From: a virus
Direction: 5' to 3' (one strand)
IMG/VR virus record: IMGVR_UViG_3300021963_000788
Location: 1 to 20,878 of that record
DNA: 20,878 nucleotides
Within the stretch, counting starts at the first letter, position 1. Each line of letters opens with the position of its first letter. This document shows positions 2,423 through 16,123 of the stretch, piece by piece. Below the pieces are notes generated by a model. It saw nothing but the letters and a program-made list of their open reading frames with translations, ran no database searches and was not told the origin of the DNA. A program made the translations under genes and the position numbers.

Positions 2423-3373
2423 ATGGCTACAAACAAAATGGATGCGGATGAGTTCAAGTTTCCCGATGAACAAGAGGAGGTATCTGCTGCGGCGGATGAC
2501 TTCGAGATAGAGATTGAGGACGATACTCCCCCGGAGGATCGCAACCGGCAGCCTTTACCCAAAGAGATGGTTCAAGATCTTGAAGAAGATGAACTTGAAG
2601 ACTATAGCGAAGGGGTGAAGGAACGTCTGAAGCAGATGAAGAAAGTCTGGCATGACGAACGCCGCGAGAAAGAACAGGCATTACGCGAACAGCAAGAAGC
2701 TTTGGCTTATGCCCAGCGTATGCAGGAAGAGAACAAAGCTCTAAAAGGCAGGCTATCTGTAGGCGAGCAGACATTTGTTAGTACCTATAAGAATGCTGCC
2801 GAGATGGAGTTGGATAACGCTAAGCGGGATTACAAAGAAGCCTACGATATGGGCGACTCTGACCGTTTGCTGGAGGCGCAGGAAAAGCTGTCGGCGGCAC
2901 AGTACAAGTTGCAAAAAGCAAACGAGTATGTTCCGTCTAGACAAGAGGAAGAAGTTGATGTACAACCCGCAACAAATCCAGTGCCTCGCCCTGACCAACG
3001 AGCGATTGCGTGGCAAGAGCGCAATGAATGGTTTGGTAAGGACGAGGAAATGACTAGCCTGGCGCTGGGGCTACATCAAAAGCTAGTTGCTCAGTATGGG
3101 ACGAGTTACCCATCTACTGACGAATACTGGAAGAAGGTCGATGACACAATGCGTCGTCGATTCCCAGAGCAATTTGGGGAAAAGGAAGAGGAAGCTGCGC
3201 CACAAAAAACGCAGCGTGCCAAAGCCGCTCCTGTCGTTGCTTCGGCAGATCGCAGCACACCCTCCAAAAAGGTGAGGCTGAAACAGTCGCAAGTCTTAAT
3301 TGCCAAGAAATTAGGATTAACCCCGGAGCAGTACGTCAGAGAAATGATGAAATTGGAGGCTTCAAATGGCTGA
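2423..3373 (+). CDS. Scaffolding protein (probable)
   Basis: Scaffolding proteins fill the procapsid and guide assembly of capsid subunits, then leave. This 316-residue protein has a strongly acidic N-terminus (residues 1-65, many D/E), a long charged coiled coil (about 65-170, rich in K/E/Q/R), a linker with Pro and Gln, and a basic C-terminal helical segment with KKVRLKQSQVLIAKKLGLTPEQYVREMMKLE. An acidic coiled coil ending in a small basic domain that binds coat protein is typical of P22-type scaffolds. Its position between portal and capsid genes matches P22 (portal, scaffold, coat). A clear AAGGAG ribosome site precedes the ATG. The call is from architecture and synteny, not from a diagnostic motif. 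Confidence 0.7.
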   Translation: MATNKMDADEFKFPDEQEEVSAAADDFEIEIEDDTPPEDRNRQPLPKEMVQDLEEDELEDYSEGVKERLKQMKKVWHDERREKEQALREQQEALAYAQRMQEENKALKGRLSVGEQTFVSTYKNAAEMELDNAKRDYKEAYDMGDSDRLLEAQEKLSAAQYKLQKANEYVPSRQEEEVDVQPATNPVPRPDQRAIAWQERNEWFGKDEEMTSLALGLHQKLVAQYGTSYPSTDEYWKKVDDTMRRRFPEQFGEKEEEAAPQKTQRAKAAPVVASADRSTPSKKVRLKQSQVLIAKKLGLTPEQYVREMMKLEASNG

Positions 3374-4496: not shown

Positions 4497-5405
4497 ATGG
4501 CTATTTCACGCGCACAACTACTGAAAGAGCTGCTGCCTGGCCTGAACGCTTTGTTCGGTTTGGAGTATGCTCGTTACGGCGAAGAACACAAAGAGATCTA
4601 CGAAACAGAGACCTCCGAGCGTTCTTTCGAAGAAGAAACAAAACTGTCTGGTTTCTCAGCCGCGCCAGTCAAAAACGAGGGCAGTGCCATTCGTTATGAC
4701 AACGGTCAAGAAGCTTGGACAGCACGATACAACCACGAAACTATTGCACTTGGTTTCTCGCTGACCGAAGAGGCCATCGAGGATAACTTGTACGACTCAC
4801 TGTCGGCTCGTTACACCAAGGCTCTGGCTCGTGCGATGTCGTACACCAAGCAGGTTAAAGCTGCTGCCGTCATTAACAATGGCTTCTCCAACACCTACCC
4901 AGGTGGCGATGGCGTTGCTCTGTTCTCGACAGCACACCCTTTAGTCTCCGGTGGCACTAACAGCAACACACCGTCTACTCAAGCTGACTTGAATGAAACT
5001 TCGTTGGAAAACGCAGTTATTCAGATCGCCGCTTGGACTGACGAACGTGATCTGTTGATCGCCGCTAAACCACGTAAGCTGATTGTTCCATCGGCTCTCC
5101 AGTTCGTTGCTACTCGTCTGTTAGAAACCAGCCTCCGTGTTGGCACTAACGACAACGATATCAACGCCCTGAAGAACAATGGTTCGATCCCAGAAGGCTA
5201 TACGATTAACCACTTCTTGACCGACACAAACGGCTGGTATTTGACTACCGACGTTCCAAACGGCATGAAGCACTTTATTCGTACACCGCTGTCGAACTCC
5301 ATGGACGGAGATTTTGATACAGGGAATGTACGCTACAAGAGCCGTGAGCGTTATAGCTTTGGTTGGTCGGATCCGCTTGGTATGTTTGGTAGCCAAGGCG
5401 CATAA
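4497..5405 (+). CDS. Major capsid protein (Mu gpT-like, HK97 fold)
   Basis: This 302-residue protein is the likely shell protein. It resembles the Mu gpT-like major head subunits: an N-terminal helical region with many Glu residues (about 30-50), the segment with ETIALGFSLTEEAIEDNLYD (about 80-99), a long helix SLSARYTKALARAMSYTKQVKAA that would be the HK97 spine helix, and a C-terminal strand-rich region with KPRKLIVPSALQFVATRLL. The AAGGAG ribosome site and favoured codons suit high expression. It follows the scaffold and ends just before a strong terminator, which marks the end of the head transcript. No separate protease or long N-terminal delta domain is seen, so the scaffold is probably a separate protein. 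Confidence 0.85.
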   Translation: MAISRAQLLKELLPGLNALFGLEYARYGEEHKEIYETETSERSFEEETKLSGFSAAPVKNEGSAIRYDNGQEAWTARYNHETIALGFSLTEEAIEDNLYDSLSARYTKALARAMSYTKQVKAAAVINNGFSNTYPGGDGVALFSTAHPLVSGGTNSNTPSTQADLNETSLENAVIQIAAWTDERDLLIAAKPRKLIVPSALQFVATRLLETSLRVGTNDNDINALKNNGSIPEGYTINHFLTDTNGWYLTTDVPNGMKHFIRTPLSNSMDGDFDTGNVRYKSRERYSFGWSDPLGMFGSQGA

Positions 5406-5500: not shown

Positions 5501-6076
5501 ATGGATTACAGCGAATACCCAAATAACCGCAAAGAAGCACAGAAACTCGGCAATAAGTATTATTTCACTGGACAGCCTTGCATTCGTGGGCATATAGCTT
5601 TACGCAAAACCAAGGGTTCTTGCCTTGAGTGTATGAAGGAAGACTGGGTTATAGACAATAAAAAACGTAGTGAAAAGCCTAAGTCAGAAGCATCCAAGGC
5701 AGCTGGTCGCAGGTATTACGAGAAAAATAAAGAAGCTGTTAAAGCTAGAGCAAATGCACGGCCTAAAGATGAAGTTTCTCAATACAGAAAAAAACATAAA
5801 GAAAACAATCCTGAATACTACAAAGCACTTACCAGCGTAAGAAAACGTAGGCACAGAAGCGCCAGCCCACCTTGGCTAACCAAAGAACATAAGCTGGCTA
5901 TGCGGCAGCTCTACTTGCAGGCGATGAAACTGACCAAGCTAACTGGCGAGCGGTATGTGGTGGATCACATAGTTCCACTGATATCAGATGCTGTCTGCGG
6001 CCTGCACGTTCCATGGAATTTGAGGGTGATTACGCAGGAAGAAAACCTTCGTAAATCAAATAAGTTAGAACCATAG
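5501..6076 (+). CDS. HNH endonuclease (freestanding homing type)
   Basis: This 191-residue protein is a probable DNA-cutting enzyme. The N-terminus has a zinc-binding pattern C27-x3-H31 then C41-x2-C44 (CIRGH and CLECM). A basic Lys/Arg/Tyr-rich middle would contact DNA. The C-terminus holds the HNH core: D155-H156 (VVDHIVPL), H169 (GLHVPWNLRVI), N173 and N182/K185 (EENLRKSN). A strong AAGGAGGA site ends 4 bases before the ATG. The gene sits alone between the capsid terminator and the next structural gene, and it is visibly richer in A and K codons than its neighbours. Both points suggest a mobile homing gene placed in a non-essential gap. There is no sign of an intron around it. Confidence 0.88.
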   Translation: MDYSEYPNNRKEAQKLGNKYYFTGQPCIRGHIALRKTKGSCLECMKEDWVIDNKKRSEKPKSEASKAAGRRYYEKNKEAVKARANARPKDEVSQYRKKHKENNPEYYKALTSVRKRRHRSASPPWLTKEHKLAMRQLYLQAMKLTKLTGERYVVDHIVPLISDAVCGLHVPWNLRVITQEENLRKSNKLEP

Positions 6077-6689: not shown

Positions 6690-6959
6690 ATGGCTATGCA
6701 AACAGACGTTAAAGCTACAAGCCTTGGTGCATCAGGAGTGGTGTTTGAAGGACGCGCTAGGGTAAAGGGCCTGATTATTGGCCCTACCGGAAACGCTGGC
6801 AACGTTACATTATCTAATGGCGGTACGAATGTATTTGCCATACAGACTACTGCTAACGGCGAAACCTTTAACGCGCTAATTCCCGGTGAGGGTGTTGTGT
6901 TTACAAGCAACGTATATGCAACTTTGCTTAATGCAACGGTGACTGTATTTTATGGCTAA
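6690..6959 (+). CDS. Small beta-rich phage structural protein
   Basis: This 89-residue protein starts after an excellent AGGAGG site and overlaps the next gene by 8 bases. It is a likely single small beta domain (ARVKGLIIGPTGNAGNVTL, then VFAIQTTANGETFNALIPGEGVVF and a strand ending in VTVFYG). It is low in charge and lacks Cys, a signal peptide or a membrane segment. Similar small proteins follow capsid genes in related environmental phages. It may be a decoration or connector protein. Confidence 0.65.
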   Translation: MAMQTDVKATSLGASGVVFEGRARVKGLIIGPTGNAGNVTLSNGGTNVFAIQTTANGETFNALIPGEGVVFTSNVYATLLNATVTVFYG

Positions 6960-7206
6960 GACTCCGGCATGGCAGCGCAAGGCAGGGAAAGCACCCTCTG
7001 GCGGATTAAACGCCAAAGGGCGGGCATCCTACAACGCAGCCAATCCGGGGAAGCCAGGTTTGAAAGCCCCTCAACCAGAAGGTGGTTCACGGAAGAAGTC
7101 ATTCTGTGCCCGCATGGAGGGGATGAAAAAGAAACTTACATCATCGAAGACAGCAAGCGACCCAAACAGCCGTATAAATAAATCACTAAGGAAGTGGAAA
7201 TGCTAG
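6952..7206 (+). CDS. DUF6321-like small basic protein
   Basis: This 84-residue, strongly basic protein matches the pattern I know as DUF6321: an N-terminal PAWQRKAGK, then GGLNAKGRASYNAANPGKPG (about 17-36), a KSFCARMEGMKK segment (49-60) and an ending RKWKC with a C-terminal cysteine. The function of the family is unknown; it is widespread in phages of aquatic bacteria. The gene overlaps both neighbours (8 bases upstream, 7 downstream). Two Cys residues (51 and 84) are positioned in conserved segments and might bind metal or form a disulfide. The family name is from memory and should be confirmed. Confidence 0.75.
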   Translation: MAKTPAWQRKAGKAPSGGLNAKGRASYNAANPGKPGLKAPQPEGGSRKKSFCARMEGMKKKLTSSKTASDPNSRINKSLRKWKC

Positions 7207-7445: not shown

Positions 7446-8141
7446 ATGAAACGCAAAGTTAAACGTTATCAAGAAGGCGGCGTTCTTACTGATAGATTTG
7501 GAAACCCAGTTCGTTCTGGTTCTGGAGAAACAGTTAAAACTCGTTTTGCTTCAACCCCCAAGTCAAGTTCTGTAGAAGTAGAAGAGCGTTCTACTAAAAG
7601 TCCAAGTGTAATGGCTGAAGAACTAGGGCAAGGCCCGATGGATTACGCAACTATGGGTAAGCGAGCCGGAGCAAGTTCGCCATTCTCTGGCCCTAAAGAA
7701 TATATATCTGAATCTTTAAAAGAAGATACAGAAACAGAATCAGAGTCCCCTCGTGGTATAGCCTCTGGCTTTAAGTCAGGCGAATCAAAATTTGAGCGAA
7801 AAGACAATGAAGTAAAAATGCCTGAAGTAAAGAAGAAGGTAATAAAGAAAGCGCCTGCAAAACCAGCATCTCAATCATTTCCTACTCGTGATAGAGATCG
7901 TGCTGATCAATCTTTTCCGCTTAAAACTGATGACAAAAAAGTTCCTCCGCTTCGCAAGATTGGTGAGGCAATTATGGGTACGATGGAAAATAAACCATTC
8001 CGTTCTTCTATGTACGACAAGATGAAAGGTCGTAAGGCTGGCGGTTCCATCAAGATGGCGTCTGGCGGCAAAACATCCAGCGCATCCTCCCGTGGTGACG
8101 GTATAGCCCAACGCGGCAAGACAAAGGGAAGGATCTGTTAA
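7446..8141 (+). CDS. Basic, largely disordered protein with KKGG/GKT-type C-terminus
   Basis: This 231-residue protein is rich in Lys, Arg, Ser, Glu and Pro and has low complexity through its middle (about 40-190), so it is probably disordered. The N-terminus (KRKVKRYQEGGVLTDRFG) and C-terminus carry Gly-basic elements. Residues 211-231 hold the signature SASSRGDGIAQRGKTKG, followed by a terminal Arg-Ile-Cys. The same signature recurs in the next two genes. An AAAGGA site precedes the ATG. It may be packaged with DNA or act in assembly; no function is known to me. Confidence 0.7.
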   Translation: MKRKVKRYQEGGVLTDRFGNPVRSGSGETVKTRFASTPKSSSVEVEERSTKSPSVMAEELGQGPMDYATMGKRAGASSPFSGPKEYISESLKEDTETESESPRGIASGFKSGESKFERKDNEVKMPEVKKKVIKKAPAKPASQSFPTRDRDRADQSFPLKTDDKKVPPLRKIGEAIMGTMENKPFRSSMYDKMKGRKAGGSIKMASGGKTSSASSRGDGIAQRGKTKGRIC

Positions 8142-8386
8142 TGGCTAAGACTAAGTACGCAGATGGCGGCATGACACAGCAGCCTACGTATCCTTTCTAT
8201 GGCAACCAGCCGCAAGCTGGCGGTCAGAATGGTGGCACGAATCAGACATTTAACATGCAGCCACAGGCCAATGCAGCGCCTAATCCGCAGCAACAGCCTA
8301 TGCAGACATTTAAAAAGGGTGGAAGCGTTTCCAGTGCTTCTAAACGTGCTGATGGTTGTGCTATCCGGGGTAAGACTCGTGCCTAG
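8141..8386 (+). CDS. Small Gln/Asn/Pro-rich protein with the same C-terminal signature
   Basis: The start ATG shares its first A with the upstream TAA stop, so translation is probably by restart. The 81-residue protein has a Gln/Asn/Gly/Pro-rich, disordered body (about residues 8-56) and then KKGGSVSSASKRADGCAIRG (residues 58-77) ending in KTRA. The last 20 residues align with the end of the upstream protein and with the middle of the next one, although the DNA differs at many third positions. It has no signal peptide or membrane segment. The function is unknown. Confidence 0.7.
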   Translation: MAKTKYADGGMTQQPTYPFYGNQPQAGGQNGGTNQTFNMQPQANAAPNPQQQPMQTFKKGGSVSSASKRADGCAIRGKTRA

Positions 8387-8822
8387 CGTTAGCAAAAAGC
8401 AAGAACGGTTTATGCAGGCGGTTGCCCACAATCCTGCATTTGCTAAAAAGGCCGGTGTGCCGCAATCTGTGGGTAAAGAATTTACAAAATCTGGAGGCGG
8501 TATGGCTGAGTCAAAGAAGATGGTCGGTAAAGAAATAGCGTTCATGAAGAAGAAGGGCGCTCCTAAGTCCATGGTTAAACATGAGATGGGCGAAATGACC
8601 GGCATGAAAAAAGGTGGCGCTACTAAGAAAATGGCTGGTGGTGGTATGGGTGCATCCAAGATGGGTGCTGTTAAAACTGCTGCTCCTAGCCGCGATGGTG
8701 TTGCTGTCAAAGGCAAAACCAAAGGTAAAAACCTTGGTGACTCTGGCAAGACCGTAGGCATCATGGGCGGCGGCATGAAAAAAGGCGGCATGTCCAAGAT
8801 GAAAAAAGGCGGGTACTGCTGA
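8379..8822 (+). CDS. Small basic modular protein (KKQ-FM-AVA and KKGG modules)
   Basis: The GTG at 8379 is chosen as the start because GGGGTA lies about 7 bases upstream and the conserved domain begins at once; further upstream the frame only shadows the previous gene. The 147-residue protein has an N-terminal module SVSKKQERFMQAVAHNPAFA ending in GVPQSVGKEF (3-35), common in small phage proteins. A second module KEIAFMKKKGAPKSMVKHEM (51-70) follows, then several MKKGG units (76-80, 133-137, 141-145), the signature TAAPSRDGVAVKGKTKGK (100-117) and a terminal Cys. It is rich in Met and Lys. It seems built by shuffling short modules; its role is unknown. Confidence 0.72.
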   Translation: MPSVSKKQERFMQAVAHNPAFAKKAGVPQSVGKEFTKSGGGMAESKKMVGKEIAFMKKKGAPKSMVKHEMGEMTGMKKGGATKKMAGGGMGASKMGAVKTAAPSRDGVAVKGKTKGKNLGDSGKTVGIMGGGMKKGGMSKMKKGGYC

Positions 8823-8823
8823 T

Positions 8824-9090
8824 ATGAGGCCATCTCGGGGCATGGGCGACATAGCCAAATCTAAAATGCCAGCGGGCACTAAGAAAGCCCGTCGGGATGA
8901 TACTGACTTCACCCAGTATAAAAAGGGTGGGAAGGTAAAACCAATATGGGATAGACCGCGTCCGAAGAAATTGGGTAAGCCGTCTGTGTTAACTGCTGTA
9001 AAGAAAGCATCCGCTAAAGCAGCGGCTAAAGCAGCAGGTAGACCTTATCCAAATTTAATCGACAATATGCGGGCTGCTCGGAAAGGATGA
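8824..9090 (+). CDS. Small highly basic phage protein
   Basis: The 88-residue protein begins one base after the preceding stop. It starts with MRPSRGMGDIAKSKMP, has a YKKGGKV element (about 37-43), a Pro/Arg/Trp segment (WDRPRPKKLGKPS) and a basic Ala-rich helix with KKASAKAAAKAAGRPYPNLI (about 60-79). The end is strongly basic. It has no acidic patch, membrane segment or enzyme motif. The Lys/Ala helix resembles the tails of nucleic-acid-binding proteins, so DNA binding in the virion is possible, but this is inference from composition. Confidence 0.7.
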   Translation: MRPSRGMGDIAKSKMPAGTKKARRDDTDFTQYKKGGKVKPIWDRPRPKKLGKPSVLTAVKKASAKAAAKAAGRPYPNLIDNMRAARKG

Positions 9091-9096
9091 TTTGAA

Positions 9097-9372
9097 ATGG
9101 CAAGCAAGTTTCCAGATTTGACAGGCGACGGCAAAGTTACGCAAGCAGATATCCTTAAGGGCCGTGGTATTGAGGGCATGAAAAAGGGTGGCAAGACGGG
9201 GGGCAAATGGATACAAGAAGCAATAAAGAAACCTGGCGCATTGCGCAAGTCGCTTGGTGTAAAGGCTGGGAAGACCATCCCGGCAAAGAAACTAGCAAAG
9301 GCCGCAAAGGCTCCGGGCACCCTCGGTAAGAGAGCGCGTTTAGCAGAAACTCTTAAAGGCTTGAAGAAGTAA
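9097..9372 (+). CDS. Small basic protein with a calcium-loop motif and KPGALR module
   Basis: This 91-residue protein has three parts. Residues 7-18 (DLTGDGKVTQAD) fit a dockerin or EF-hand calcium loop, with D7, T9, D11, T15 and D18 at ligand positions. Residues 27-32 are GMKKGG, the peptide shared with neighbours. From about residue 36 comes KWIQEAIKKPGALRKSLGVK and a Lys/Ala-rich helical end (KRARLAETLKGLKK), a module seen in many small phage proteins. AAGGA lies upstream of the ATG. It may be a virion protein stabilised by calcium; the motif is seen, the binding is inferred. Confidence 0.72.
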   Translation: MASKFPDLTGDGKVTQADILKGRGIEGMKKGGKTGGKWIQEAIKKPGALRKSLGVKAGKTIPAKKLAKAAKAPGTLGKRARLAETLKGLKK

Positions 9373-9374
9373 TC

Positions 9375-10115
9375 ATGCCATACACAACCAGCACTACAGC
9401 GTTTAACCCAACTCTTAATGATCTCTGCGAAGAGGCATTCGAGAGGTGCGGTCTTGAGATGCGTACTGGTTATGATTTCCGCACGGCTCGTCGCAGTCTT
9501 AACTTGCTGCTGACAGAGTGGGCTAATCGCGGTATCAACTTATGGACTATAGACAGCGGTACGATTCCACTTATACAGGGAGTAAACACGTATGACCTTC
9601 CTAACGATACTGTTGATCTTATCGAGCATGTTATTCGTAATTACCCTGGCTCCCAGGCGAACCAGATCGACATCAACATCAACCGAATAAGTGTATCTAC
9701 GTACTCCACAATACCGAATAAGCTGACGCAAGGCCGTCCTATTCAGGTGTGGATTAACCGTCGTTCAGGTCAGACTACAGATGAAGTAGGAGCTACAACA
9801 AAGGTTCCGCAGATAGTCGTATGGCCTACGCCAGATCAGGGGACAGTCGATGCTCCATTCTATTATTTTGTTTACTATCGCCTTCGTCGCATGGTTGATG
9901 CTGGTAATGGTGTGAATGTAGAAGAGATTCCATTCCGCTTCCAAGAGTGCTTGATTTGCGGCTTGGCTTACAGGCTGGCTATGAAACTGCCAGGCGGCTT
10001 AGAGCGCATACAGTTGCTGAAGTCTCAGTACGATGAGGCATGGGAAATGGCGGCAGGAGAAGACCGCGAGAAAGCGCCAGATCGTTTGGTGCCTCGCATG
10101 ATTACTTACAGGTGA
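9375..10115 (+). CDS. Head-tail adaptor, P22 gp4-like (probable)
   Basis: Adaptor proteins form a ring under the portal and join it to the tail. This 246-residue protein has the characteristic start: LNDLCEEAFERCGLE, then DFRTARRSLNLLLTEWANRG (residues 34-53), INLWTI, and a strand pair TYDLPNDTVDLIEHVI. A helical C-terminus (PFRFQECLICGLAYRLAMKL, about 185-204) follows. These elements are typical of gp4-like tail accessory factors and of T7 gp11-type tubular proteins. In P22 gp4 lies just after the coat gene; here it is separated from it by the HNH gene and the small-protein cluster. At 246 residues it is longer than P22 gp4 (166). Confidence 0.7.
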   Translation: MPYTTSTTAFNPTLNDLCEEAFERCGLEMRTGYDFRTARRSLNLLLTEWANRGINLWTIDSGTIPLIQGVNTYDLPNDTVDLIEHVIRNYPGSQANQIDININRISVSTYSTIPNKLTQGRPIQVWINRRSGQTTDEVGATTKVPQIVVWPTPDQGTVDAPFYYFVYYRLRRMVDAGNGVNVEEIPFRFQECLICGLAYRLAMKLPGGLERIQLLKSQYDEAWEMAAGEDREKAPDRLVPRMITYR

Positions 10116-10550: not shown

Positions 10551-10715
10551 ATGGACACAAAGCAAGTTAAACAGATCGCCAGCAAAGAAGTGAAATCGCA
10601 CGAAAAGCGTATGCACAAGATGGCAAAAGGTGGCGTTACTACTGAATCCATGGAAAAATACGGTCGCAATATGGCTCGTGTTATGAACCAGAAATCTAAC
10701 GGAAGAGGTCGCTAA
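10551..10715 (+). CDS. 54-residue basic helical protein
   Basis: This short gene has an AGGAG site 5 bases before its ATG and ends with a TAA whose last A begins the next ATG (TAATG). The product is very basic and mostly helical: TKQVKQIASKEVKSHEKRMH, then KMAKGG and a tail with EKYGRNMARVMNQK. It carries a KGG element like the cluster at 8141-9372. Its length, phase with neighbours and site all support a real gene, and I recognise the KEVK...H..RMH pattern from similar phages. Function unknown; nucleic-acid binding is possible. Confidence 0.75.
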   Translation: MDTKQVKQIASKEVKSHEKRMHKMAKGGVTTESMEKYGRNMARVMNQKSNGRGR

Positions 10716-10972
10716 TGGCTAAGTTCTCGCAAAAGGTTAAGGGTAAGGAAGTAGGTCAAGCATCTACTTATGCCCAGCCTCACACTATGAGCGGCAAAGA
10801 AGTAAAAGGTGATCTGCCTTATACAGCTGGCGCGAAGGTTATAGATGACATGAACATCTCTGTTGCTGGTCTTAGCAAGGGTAACTACAAAGAGGCCAAG
10901 ACTGACGGCATCAAGATGCGCGGCGCTGGTGCTGCGACCAAGGGCACAATGTGCCGGGGGCCGATGGCTTAA
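10715..10972 (+). CDS. Small basic phage protein with TDGIKMRG ending
   Basis: The 85-residue product begins at the overlapping TAATG. It has a basic start (KFSQKVKGKEVGQAS), a middle with YTAGAKVIDDMNIS and a C-terminus KTDGIKMRGAGAATKGTMCR (about 63-82) that ends in GPMA. The DGI-x-x-RG stretch looks like a variant of the DG-x-A-x-RGKT signature of the cluster, but the GKT part is replaced by GAGAATKGT. It has no membrane segment. It is followed with no gap by the next gene, so coupled translation is likely. The function is unknown. Confidence 0.7.
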   Translation: MAKFSQKVKGKEVGQASTYAQPHTMSGKEVKGDLPYTAGAKVIDDMNISVAGLSKGNYKEAKTDGIKMRGAGAATKGTMCRGPMA

Positions 10973-14521: not shown

Positions 14522-16123
14522 ATGTTTGCTTATTCAAAGATTATGCAAGCGTTGGCTGTTGGCGGTGGCTCTGTAACCGTCATTCAGCGTTTCCTTGCGT
14601 CTGGTACGTGGACTTGTCCGACTGGTGTTACCACAGTTGATTACCTTGTGGTAGCTGGTGGTGGTGGTGGTGGTCAACGTGGTGGTGGCGGCGGTGGCGC
14701 TGGAGGATTCCGTACAGGCACAGGACTAAGTGTTACTGCTGGTACTGATTACACAATTACCGTTGGTGCAGGTGGTGCTGGTGCTGTTGGTAGTTCTAGT
14801 GGAAACAATGGAACGGTTGGAGGTAATTCAACATTTAATTCTGTCACTTCTAATGGTGGTGGATATGGTGCAGGTTGGTTAGGACAATCAACTGCTGGAA
14901 CGGCTGGCGGAAACGGTGGCTCAGGCGGTGGCGGTGCTGCACAATTTGGTGCTAGTAGCGTAGGTGCTGCTGGTTCTGGAAATACTCCATCAACTTCGCC
15001 AGCACAAGGTAGCAATGGCGGCTCTGGTGGTTCTGGTTCAGGTGGTGGCGGTGGCGGTGCTGGAGCTACAGGAACATCAGGATCAGGTACAACAGGCGGC
15101 AATGGAGGCAATGGAACTGCGTCAACTTTGTCTGGTTCGTCTGTTACTTATGCTGGCGGTGCTGGTGGTGGTGCTGATACAGCGGGTACTGGTGGTACTG
15201 GCGGCGGCGCAAATGGAATTGCAGGAACTGCTACTGCTCCATCTGGAACTGCAAATACAGGTGGCGGTGGTGGTGGCTCTAGAAATGATAGTGATGGGAC
15301 TGGTGCAATAGGCGGTGCTGGCGGCTCCGGCATAGTCATTCTTTCTTATTCCGTAGCATCACAAACAGTCTTTACATTTAAATCATCGACTACATGGGTA
15401 TGCCCTACAGGTGTGACTAGCGTGGATTATTTAGTCGTGGCTGGTGGTGGTGGGGGTGGCGGTGACGTAGGTGCTGGCGGCGGTGCTGGAGGTTTTAGAA
15501 CCGGAACATCTTTATCGGTTACGGCTGGCACAGAATATACGATTACTGTTGGGGCTGGTGGGTCTGGTGGAGCTGGCTCTGGTCTTGGAGTAAACGGCAG
15601 CAATTCTGTATTTAGCTCTATTACGTCTGCTGGCGGTGGTTATGGTGGTACGGCAACTGCTGGCGGTGGTAGTGGTGGTTCTGGCGGTTCTGGTGGTGGA
15701 GCAGCACATAACGCTGGTACTGCTGGTTCTGGAAACACTCCTTCAACAACTCCATCACAAGGAAATAATGGTGGTGGATATAATGGTTCTGGTAATGCAA
15801 GCGGTGGAGGAGGTGGTGCTGGTGCTGTAGGTGCTACTGTAGCTAATTCATCCTCACCTAATGGCGGTGCTGGTGGTACTGGAACTGCTAGTAGTATTAG
15901 CGGTTCTAGCGTTACGTATGCTGGAGGCGGTGGTGGTGGCTCTCGTACAACTCCTCAAGGTGCTGGTGGTTCCGGTGGTGGCGGTGCAGGTGGGCAAACA
16001 GGTTCTAATGGAACGGCTGGAACTGCTAATACTGGTGGTGGTGGCGGTGGTGGTACATCAAGTCCAAATCCCAATGGCGGAACCGGCGGCTCTGGCATCG
16101 TAATTATTAAAATCAACCAATAA
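14522..16123 (+). CDS. Glycine-rich receptor-binding-type protein, internally duplicated
   Basis: This 533-residue protein is dominated by Gly, Ser, Thr and Ala. Two halves are alike: each starts with TWxCPTGVT and VDYLVVAGGGGGG, has GAGGFRTGT-x-LSVTAGT and YTITVGAGG, and ends with GGSGIVI (first half about 24-277, second about 284-533). This is the glycine-rich domain often found in phage tail tips and adhesins, which fold as polyglycine-II helix bundles in the T4-like gp38 adhesins. It follows the fibre gene, so a fibre tip or receptor-binding protein is likely. The long Gly stretches are variable between phages, as expected for host-range determinants. The start has an AGGGG ribosome site. 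Confidence 0.75.
   Translation: MFAYSKIMQALAVGGGSVTVIQRFLASGTWTCPTGVTTVDYLVVAGGGGGGQRGGGGGGAGGFRTGTGLSVTAGTDYTITVGAGGAGAVGSSSGNNGTVGGNSTFNSVTSNGGGYGAGWLGQSTAGTAGGNGGSGGGGAAQFGASSVGAAGSGNTPSTSPAQGSNGGSGGSGSGGGGGGAGATGTSGSGTTGGNGGNGTASTLSGSSVTYAGGAGGGADTAGTGGTGGGANGIAGTATAPSGTANTGGGGGGSRNDSDGTGAIGGAGGSGIVILSYSVASQTVFTFKSSTTWVCPTGVTSVDYLVVAGGGGGGGDVGAGGGAGGFRTGTSLSVTAGTEYTITVGAGGSGGAGSGLGVNGSNSVFSSITSAGGGYGGTATAGGGSGGSGGSGGGAAHNAGTAGSGNTPSTTPSQGNNGGGYNGSGNASGGGGGAGAVGATVANSSSPNGGAGGTGTASSISGSSVTYAGGGGGGSRTTPQGAGGSGGGGAGGQTGSNGTAGTANTGGGGGGGTSSPNPNGGTGGSGIVIIKINQ
14591..16120 (+). repeat. Internal duplication of the glycine-rich unit
   Basis: Copy 1 covers about 14591-15352 and copy 2 about 15371-16120. 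Both encode the same order of motifs (CPTGVT, VDYLVVAGG, GAGGFRTGT, YTITVGAGG, SVTYAGG, GSGIVI). The DNA differs at many third positions, so the duplication is old or has been diversified. Short GGTGGTGG runs are frequent inside both copies. Confidence 0.8.

Follow-up and report, generated by a model that had tools for sequence, protein, structure and literature searches.

In bacteriophage T4, the internal proteins have only a packaging leader in common, and they are injected and inhibit restriction (PMC3012670, PMC12373910). The T-even proteins IPI, IPII and IPIII carry a capsid targeting sequence (CTS) at the N-terminus and are processed, and the bodies of the T-even internal proteins differ between close relatives (PMC3012670, PMC12373910). 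A comparable arrangement was found in a viral contig of 20,878 bases, the whole of which is called here the window, and in related loci: as in the T-even phages, several small proteins per phage bear a short terminal signal, on bodies that likewise differ between close relatives. This signal, named here the class-1 tag, is C-terminal and of a different sequence and, unlike in T4, no prohead protease was recognised among the head genes of the 20.9 kb window fragment; for these three reasons the system is placed outside the T4 family. No description of the C-terminal tag, which is borne by dozens of unrelated proteins, was found in the open papers searched.

The window holds the greater part of a portal protein, together with a GroES-like protein and tail genes; open reading frames were called mechanically, and the genes and tags listed here, from the scaffold position to the class-3 gene, lie on the plus strand. 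An acidic protein (2423..3373, net charge -19, phrog_28737 of unknown function) occupies the scaffold position, a scaffold role being suggested by position alone. The major capsid protein (4497..5405; PF25209, E 2e-13; phrog_371, E 2.4e-22) and an SU10/Pam1-type adaptor (9375..10115; PF24175, E 7.3e-9), whose homologue in DSL-LC04 is annotated as a Pam1 adaptor homologue, form the left and right borders of the interval of interest. The order of the capsid, GroES and adaptor genes is the same in the Pam1/HTVC023P-type podoviruses, and the nearest cultured relatives, judged by the adaptor, are DSL-LC04, the Roseobacter phages CRP-901/902, the Pelagibacter phages HTVC023P/027P and the Planktothrix phage Pag-Yong1. 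Within the interval, a DUF6321 protein of 84 aa ending in KWKC (6952..7206; PF19846, E 6.4e-19, with 68.8 bits against a Pfam gathering threshold of 28.5) is followed by two tagged genes. The first (7446..8141, 231 aa) has an N-terminal KRKVKRYQEGG, a variable middle, an SGGK hinge and the class-1 tag; it matches no Pfam family above cut-off and no PHROG, and relatives of it do exist. The second (8141..8386, 81 aa) has an FKKGG hinge at 8309-8323 and then a shortened tag. Three further small genes follow, namely 8379..8822 (147 aa, GTG start, ending in GGYC; phrog_16759, E 4e-19, and an alignment of orthologues), 8824..9090 (88 aa, a YKKGG hinge and then an RPKKLGKP..GRPYPNLIDNM module; phrog_34011, E 1e-20) and 9097..9372 (91 aa, an EF-hand-like loop, a GMKKGG hinge and a KWIQ..KKPGALRKSLG module; phrog_20603/15706, about 1e-3). 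Downstream of the adaptor are a basic protein of 54 aa, conserved in relatives, with a MAKGG hinge (10551..10715) and a protein of 85 aa with a different C-terminal tag, of class 3 (10715..10972). Genes 6952, 7446, 8379, 8824 and 9097 encode very basic proteins, with net charges of +18 to +24. Elsewhere in the window, a basic protein of 191 aa between the capsid and the small head genes (5501-6076) resembles by eye an HNH-type homing endonuclease and has no Pfam match, and the tail gene region includes a protein of 533 aa (14522-16123) with 36% glycine and seemingly two similar halves.

The preliminary description had reported KKGG-type peptides in five adjacent genes of this interval, at coordinates that proved correct to within one codon. 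Six copies are present in four of the five genes, one each in 8141 (8312-8323), 8824 (8920-8931) and 9097 (9181-9192) and three in 8379 (8607-8618, 8778-8789 and 8802-8813), and none in 7446, which has only KAGG and SGGK. The MAKGG of 10551 was also found (10620-10634), KKGG is absent from every other gene in the window, and the GTG start of 8379 is accepted because its homologues begin MPSVSKKQ. The proteins concerned are rich in lysine and glycine, and an artefact of this composition might thus be suspected; however, shuffles gave a mean of 0.40 KKGG when composition was kept (none of 20,000 reaching six) and of 0.88 when dipeptides were preserved (none of 5,000), so that the six copies exceed the 0.4-0.9 expected for Lys/Gly-rich sequences and are not due to chance. 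Since, in addition, the tag is near-invariant across unrelated proteins, the probability of a composition artefact is negligible. Related phages retain the peptide beside the capsid and adaptor genes: over 116 related loci, KKGG occurs at 1.92 per 1000 residues between these two genes, against 0.09 elsewhere (a difference of about 20-fold) and 0.19 in shuffled sequences, and the looser form [MFYL][KRA]xGG is also well over the shuffled level. KKGG is also conserved in position: in the orthologues of 9097, out to HTVC027P, it is flanked by the EF-hand-like loop on one side and the KWIQ module on the other. The DNA core thought to surround the units (atgaaaaa-r-gg-y-gg) is, on the other hand, ordinary coding sequence, in which the codons vary (AAA/AAG, GGT/GGC, GGC/GGA/GGG). 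The idea of a short peptide common to unlike neighbouring proteins beside the capsid and adaptor genes therefore holds in part: the shared element is a larger C-terminal tag that had been overlooked, which follows a GG hinge in genes 7446 and 8141 and is internal in gene 8379, while KKGG is a hinge, placed before the tag or between modules in 8824, 9097 and 8379.

Similar tails on many unrelated proteins were first seen by listing the C-termini of related proteins. The consensus of the class-1 tag is GG-x-V-x-SAS-x-R(A/G)DG(I/C)AQRGKT(K/R)G(R/K)(M/I)(V/C)-COOH or, over 140 distinct tails, GG-(K/S)-V-S-S-A-S-(S/K)-R-(A/G)-D-G-(I/C)-A-Q-(R/K)-G-K-T-(R/K)-G-(R/K)-(M/I)-(V/C), the tag itself being the C-terminal RxDGxAxRGKTxG sequence of about 16 residues. 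Its R, D, G, G, T and G are present in 100% of these 140 tails, and several positions are 99-100% invariant. A total of 355 class-1 tags was collected across 207 loci, and the match ends exactly 3 residues before the stop in 332 of them and 9-15 residues before it in the other 23. In the window, the tag SRGDGIAQRGKTKGRIC closes gene 7446 (8088..8138), the shortened form KRADGCAIRGKTRA closes gene 8141 (8342..8383), and a class-1-like tag, SRDGVAVKGKTKGK, is internal to gene 8379 (8688..8729) and stands at or near the C-terminus in several of its orthologues. An alignment of 111 representatives of the bodies showed no clear conservation outside the hinge and the tag, and in the KKGG-type hinge each of the two glycines was invariant. 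An N-terminal motif like MKRKVKRYxEGG (7446-7480 in the window) is common to 62 of 286 distinct tagged proteins, so that many tagged genes have two conserved ends around a variable middle. Furthermore, in one related locus (L276, 1374-1727) a DUF6321 protein carries a class-1-like tag past its usual C-terminal cysteine, two elements that are separate in the window.

The class-1 tag is conserved at the protein level. In pairs of tagged genes from one locus with unrelated bodies, the last 20 residues are 79% identical in protein, and the same codon is used at 41% of the shared residues, compared with 33% expected from codon usage. The preliminary description had suggested, among other possibilities, a recombination point for the shuffling of modules; this is not supported, because codon sharing is only slightly above expectation and a Shine-Dalgarno bias of the last codons may account for part of the excess. 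A recombination site acting at the DNA level was likewise rejected, as the codons vary. The bias in question concerns codons -4/-3: these are mostly GGA/GGG followed by AAG/AGG, which resembles a Shine-Dalgarno sequence and differs from the other glycine codons, and the bias is a separate, small effect. In gene 7446 the final codons of the tag (8088-8141) double as the ribosome-binding site for the next gene. It could be argued from these codons that the conserved ends as a whole are RNA signals supplying the ribosome-binding site of the following gene, but they involve the last few codons only, and the invariant R, D, G, G, K and T upstream use varied synonymous codons; codon variation refutes this explanation for the whole tag, and we consider it very improbable.

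The tagged genes are confined to one place in the genome. Both border genes are present in 116 loci, and the 165 tagged genes of these loci all (165/165) fall within the interval that the major capsid and adaptor genes enclose; this interval also holds 21 of the 21 tag matches in seven larger phage contigs (43-67 kb) that were searched in full. The number of tagged genes per locus ranges from 0 to 5; the tag is not universal, since 28 of the 116 two-border loci lack it by the pattern used, and as resemblance to the tag or to proteins of the window decided which loci were gathered, none of these frequencies is unbiased. Homologues of the structural genes of the window were found in 206 of the 207 tag-bearing loci, the exception being a fragment of 8.6 kb. 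In 84,980 prokaryote genomes only three tag loci occur, each on a contig that comes from a metagenome or uncultured assembly; the class-1 tag is thus essentially phage-only, and its carriers are a family of freshwater viruses that infect bacteria. A search with tblastn gave no match to the tag among cultured phages, in part because short low-complexity queries are insensitive, and in cultured phages the tag was seen only as a divergent version, GRDGCAKRGRTKGRFI, in Planktothrix phage Pag-Yong1, where it ends a 308-aa protein encoded two genes upstream of the adaptor gene (OL906435.1, 51312-52238). The strict C-terminal position and the basic residues followed by a hydrophobic end recall C-terminal ClpX signals, and the tag might accordingly be one that a host or phage factor reads in the course of infection, for degradation or regulation; a tag could as well have a part in regulation or turnover within infected cells as in loading. 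The class-1 tag, however, is restricted to a single gene interval in a single phage family and, to our knowledge, known degrons are shorter and less conserved; we therefore regard this reading as improbable.

The bodies to which the tag is attached are many and change rapidly. By single-linkage grouping, the class-1 bodies fall into 79-112 clusters according to the linking stringency, an outcome that depends on the settings as the bodies are of low complexity. Nearly all of these clusters lack a convincing Pfam or PHROG match, the tagged proteins have no sequence match in the PDB, and 81% of the cluster representatives have a net positive charge. Where the capsid proteins of two loci are 90-97% identical, 8% of the comparisons gave a recognisable counterpart of the tagged body; the corresponding values were 57% for untagged genes that lie in the interval and are similarly long, and 64% for all other genes; this test does not separate replacement from very rapid divergence of disordered bodies, and the low value could reflect either.

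Some genes of the region contain modules that recur in proteins of other phages. Gene 8379 is built of an SKKQ..GVPQSVGKEF module, an ESKKMVGKE..KHE module and a tail with three KKGG and the internal tag; in its structure model the chain is helical to residue 74 and pLDDT is below 50 for nearly all of residues 80-147, hinge and tag included (the models of 8379 and 9097 were of low confidence and were not used in fold searches). Its N-terminus belongs to the same family as the phrog_16759-type module (MPSxSKxQxxFMxAVAHNP..VGKEF) of jumbo and other phages, which stands nearly alone in PHIKZ165.1 of phiKZ and in Klebsiella phage N1M2, whereas in 8379 it is fused to a second helical module and to the KKGG/tag tail. 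The same module also begins CBB_322 of Pectobacterium phage CBB, a protein detected in purified CBB virions by mass spectrometry with 30 unique peptides and 44% coverage (PMC5259590). This link, in which the shared module is not the tag, is the firmest indirect support for virion entry; neither virion proteomics nor a structure was found for any class-1 tagged protein in the open literature searched. In gene 9097, the EF-hand-like loop DLTGDGKVTQAD (9097-9159), DLNKDGEVTKAD in relatives, is conserved in 28 aligned relatives, although the EF-hand Pfam gives no hit for the 9097 protein and only a sub-threshold one for gp53 of HTVC023P; the EF-hand calcium loop with which it was compared has 12 residues and the pattern Dx[DNST]xDGx[IV]xxx[DE]. 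A 427-aa protein of the T4-like Synechococcus phage S-B43 (L192, 2957-4240), annotated as structural, concatenates the modules KWVDIG, YPSAYAN, VPNCVP and DUF6321, the last forming its C-terminal part; in the podoviruses HTVC027P, HTVC023P and DSL-LC04 the modules of this protein are separate small genes. Gene 6952, which encodes a stand-alone protein of 84 aa, is to be compared with other DUF6321 proteins and with the cyanomyovirus T4-GC119 protein, to which annotation gives a virion role.

These likenesses bear on the possibility that the tagged and KKGG proteins, instead of being cargo, belong to the head-neck junction as fixed minor structural components, such as connector or cement accessories. 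The location of the genes between the capsid/cement and adaptor genes and the structural annotation of the S-B43 protein would agree with it, and it fits well the untagged conserved genes 6952, 8824, 9097 and 10551, as well as 10715. For the tagged proteins it is contradicted by bodies that differ among phages with nearly identical capsid proteins and by a number of tagged genes that varies from 0 to 5 per locus, and overall it appears unlikely. Three unrelated families of this region end in cysteine, with KWKC in 6952-7206, GRIC in 7446-8141 and GGYC in 8379-8822. A C-terminal cysteine is found, at the last position only, in 22% of the distinct genes between capsid and adaptor compared with 0.8% elsewhere, an excess which is dominated by these few families but may point to a shared terminal-thiol chemistry.

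Of the roles that can be proposed for the class-1 tag, the virion loading or docking of fast-changing basic proteins is the likeliest, with a probability a little short of even, because the terminal signal, the basic bodies, their presence in several copies per genome, their turnover and their location among head genes match the T4 internal proteins. A shared binding partner or packaging tag had already been put forward, and it is still the best explanation, the signal being the C-terminal tag of about 16 residues and not KKGG. We infer that the tagged proteins would enter the virion, that a docking partner would receive them and that their bodies would act inside a new host. More precisely, the tag would dock, while the particle is being assembled, on a single partner specific to the lineage, the candidates being the acidic scaffold-position protein (2423..3373, net -19), the inner surface of the capsid, the portal and the adaptor, and docking would load unrelated, fast-changing proteins into the virion. 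The KKGG-type sequence would serve as a flexible hinge joining the tag, or a module, to the body, and the bodies could be active in the newly infected host, whose defences are one conceivable target. That the tagged bodies are injected effectors is possible, if doubtful. On the same footing, we tentatively propose that a widespread group of freshwater podoviruses has its own C-terminal cargo-loading code for rapidly exchanged injected effectors, independent of the N-terminal signal of T4 and with distinct tag classes in marine relatives. Should the tag load cargo, there would be a second, C-terminal route for loading phage particles besides that of T4; any protein with this ending could be suspected of being an injected effector or an anti-defence protein of common freshwater phages, and a large set of otherwise unannotatable phage proteins would become recognisable at a glance. 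Even if it merely docks structural parts, dozens of orphan families would be tied to one location and one partner.

A different role is suggested by the charge of several of these proteins (net +18 to +24) and by the G-x4-G-K-T that class 1 keeps almost invariantly: the tag and the KKGG modules could bind nucleic acids, the proteins being protamine-like DNA condensers and GIAQRGKT a phosphate-binding loop. General DNA binding, however, needs neither near-invariant residues nor an exact distance from the C-terminus, and the GKT is not kept in the other two tag classes, so that this reading seems quite unlikely. A P-loop NTPase was rejected, as the bare GxxxxGKT string stands in a tail of about 16 residues, has no Pfam NTPase match and is not kept in the other classes.

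Besides the class-1 tag, two other classes of C-terminal tag were recognised. Class 2, RGGGAAIRGTKFKGVF, occurs in marine HTVC023P-type phages, where all 32 matches are C-terminal and several different bodies bear it; the seed alignment was composed in part by hand as a search probe, and the matches are real loci. In HTVC023P itself, class-2 tags end gp51 (RGGGAAVRGMGFKGVF) and gp32 (RGVGAAIRGHKFIGVK). Class 3, KTDGIKMRGAGAATKGTMCRGPMA, differs from class 1 and forms the C-terminus of gene 10715, where it reads TDGIKMRGAGAATKGTMCRGPMA (10901..10969); the 10715 family is one homologous group, of which a genome has at most one member, encoded shortly after the adaptor gene. All three classes share R-x-x-G-(I/A)-A-x-(R/K)-G and the C-terminal position, and classes 2 and 3 do not retain the GKT of class 1. 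Profile comparisons support a probable kinship between classes 2 and 3 (E 8e-6, probability 84%), to which class 1 appears weakly linked (E 0.0025 and 12% with class 2; E 0.0073 and 5% with class 3). Because the class-1 comparisons are weak, homology of class 1 with the other two was not accepted, and the three are treated as separate classes with a common pattern and not as proven homologues. A possible further C-terminal pattern, GGxV..GxGSGxGRLxK, was noticed in Pag-Yong1 (L193, 11716-11967) and in ct7L0027 (L282, 4258-5406).
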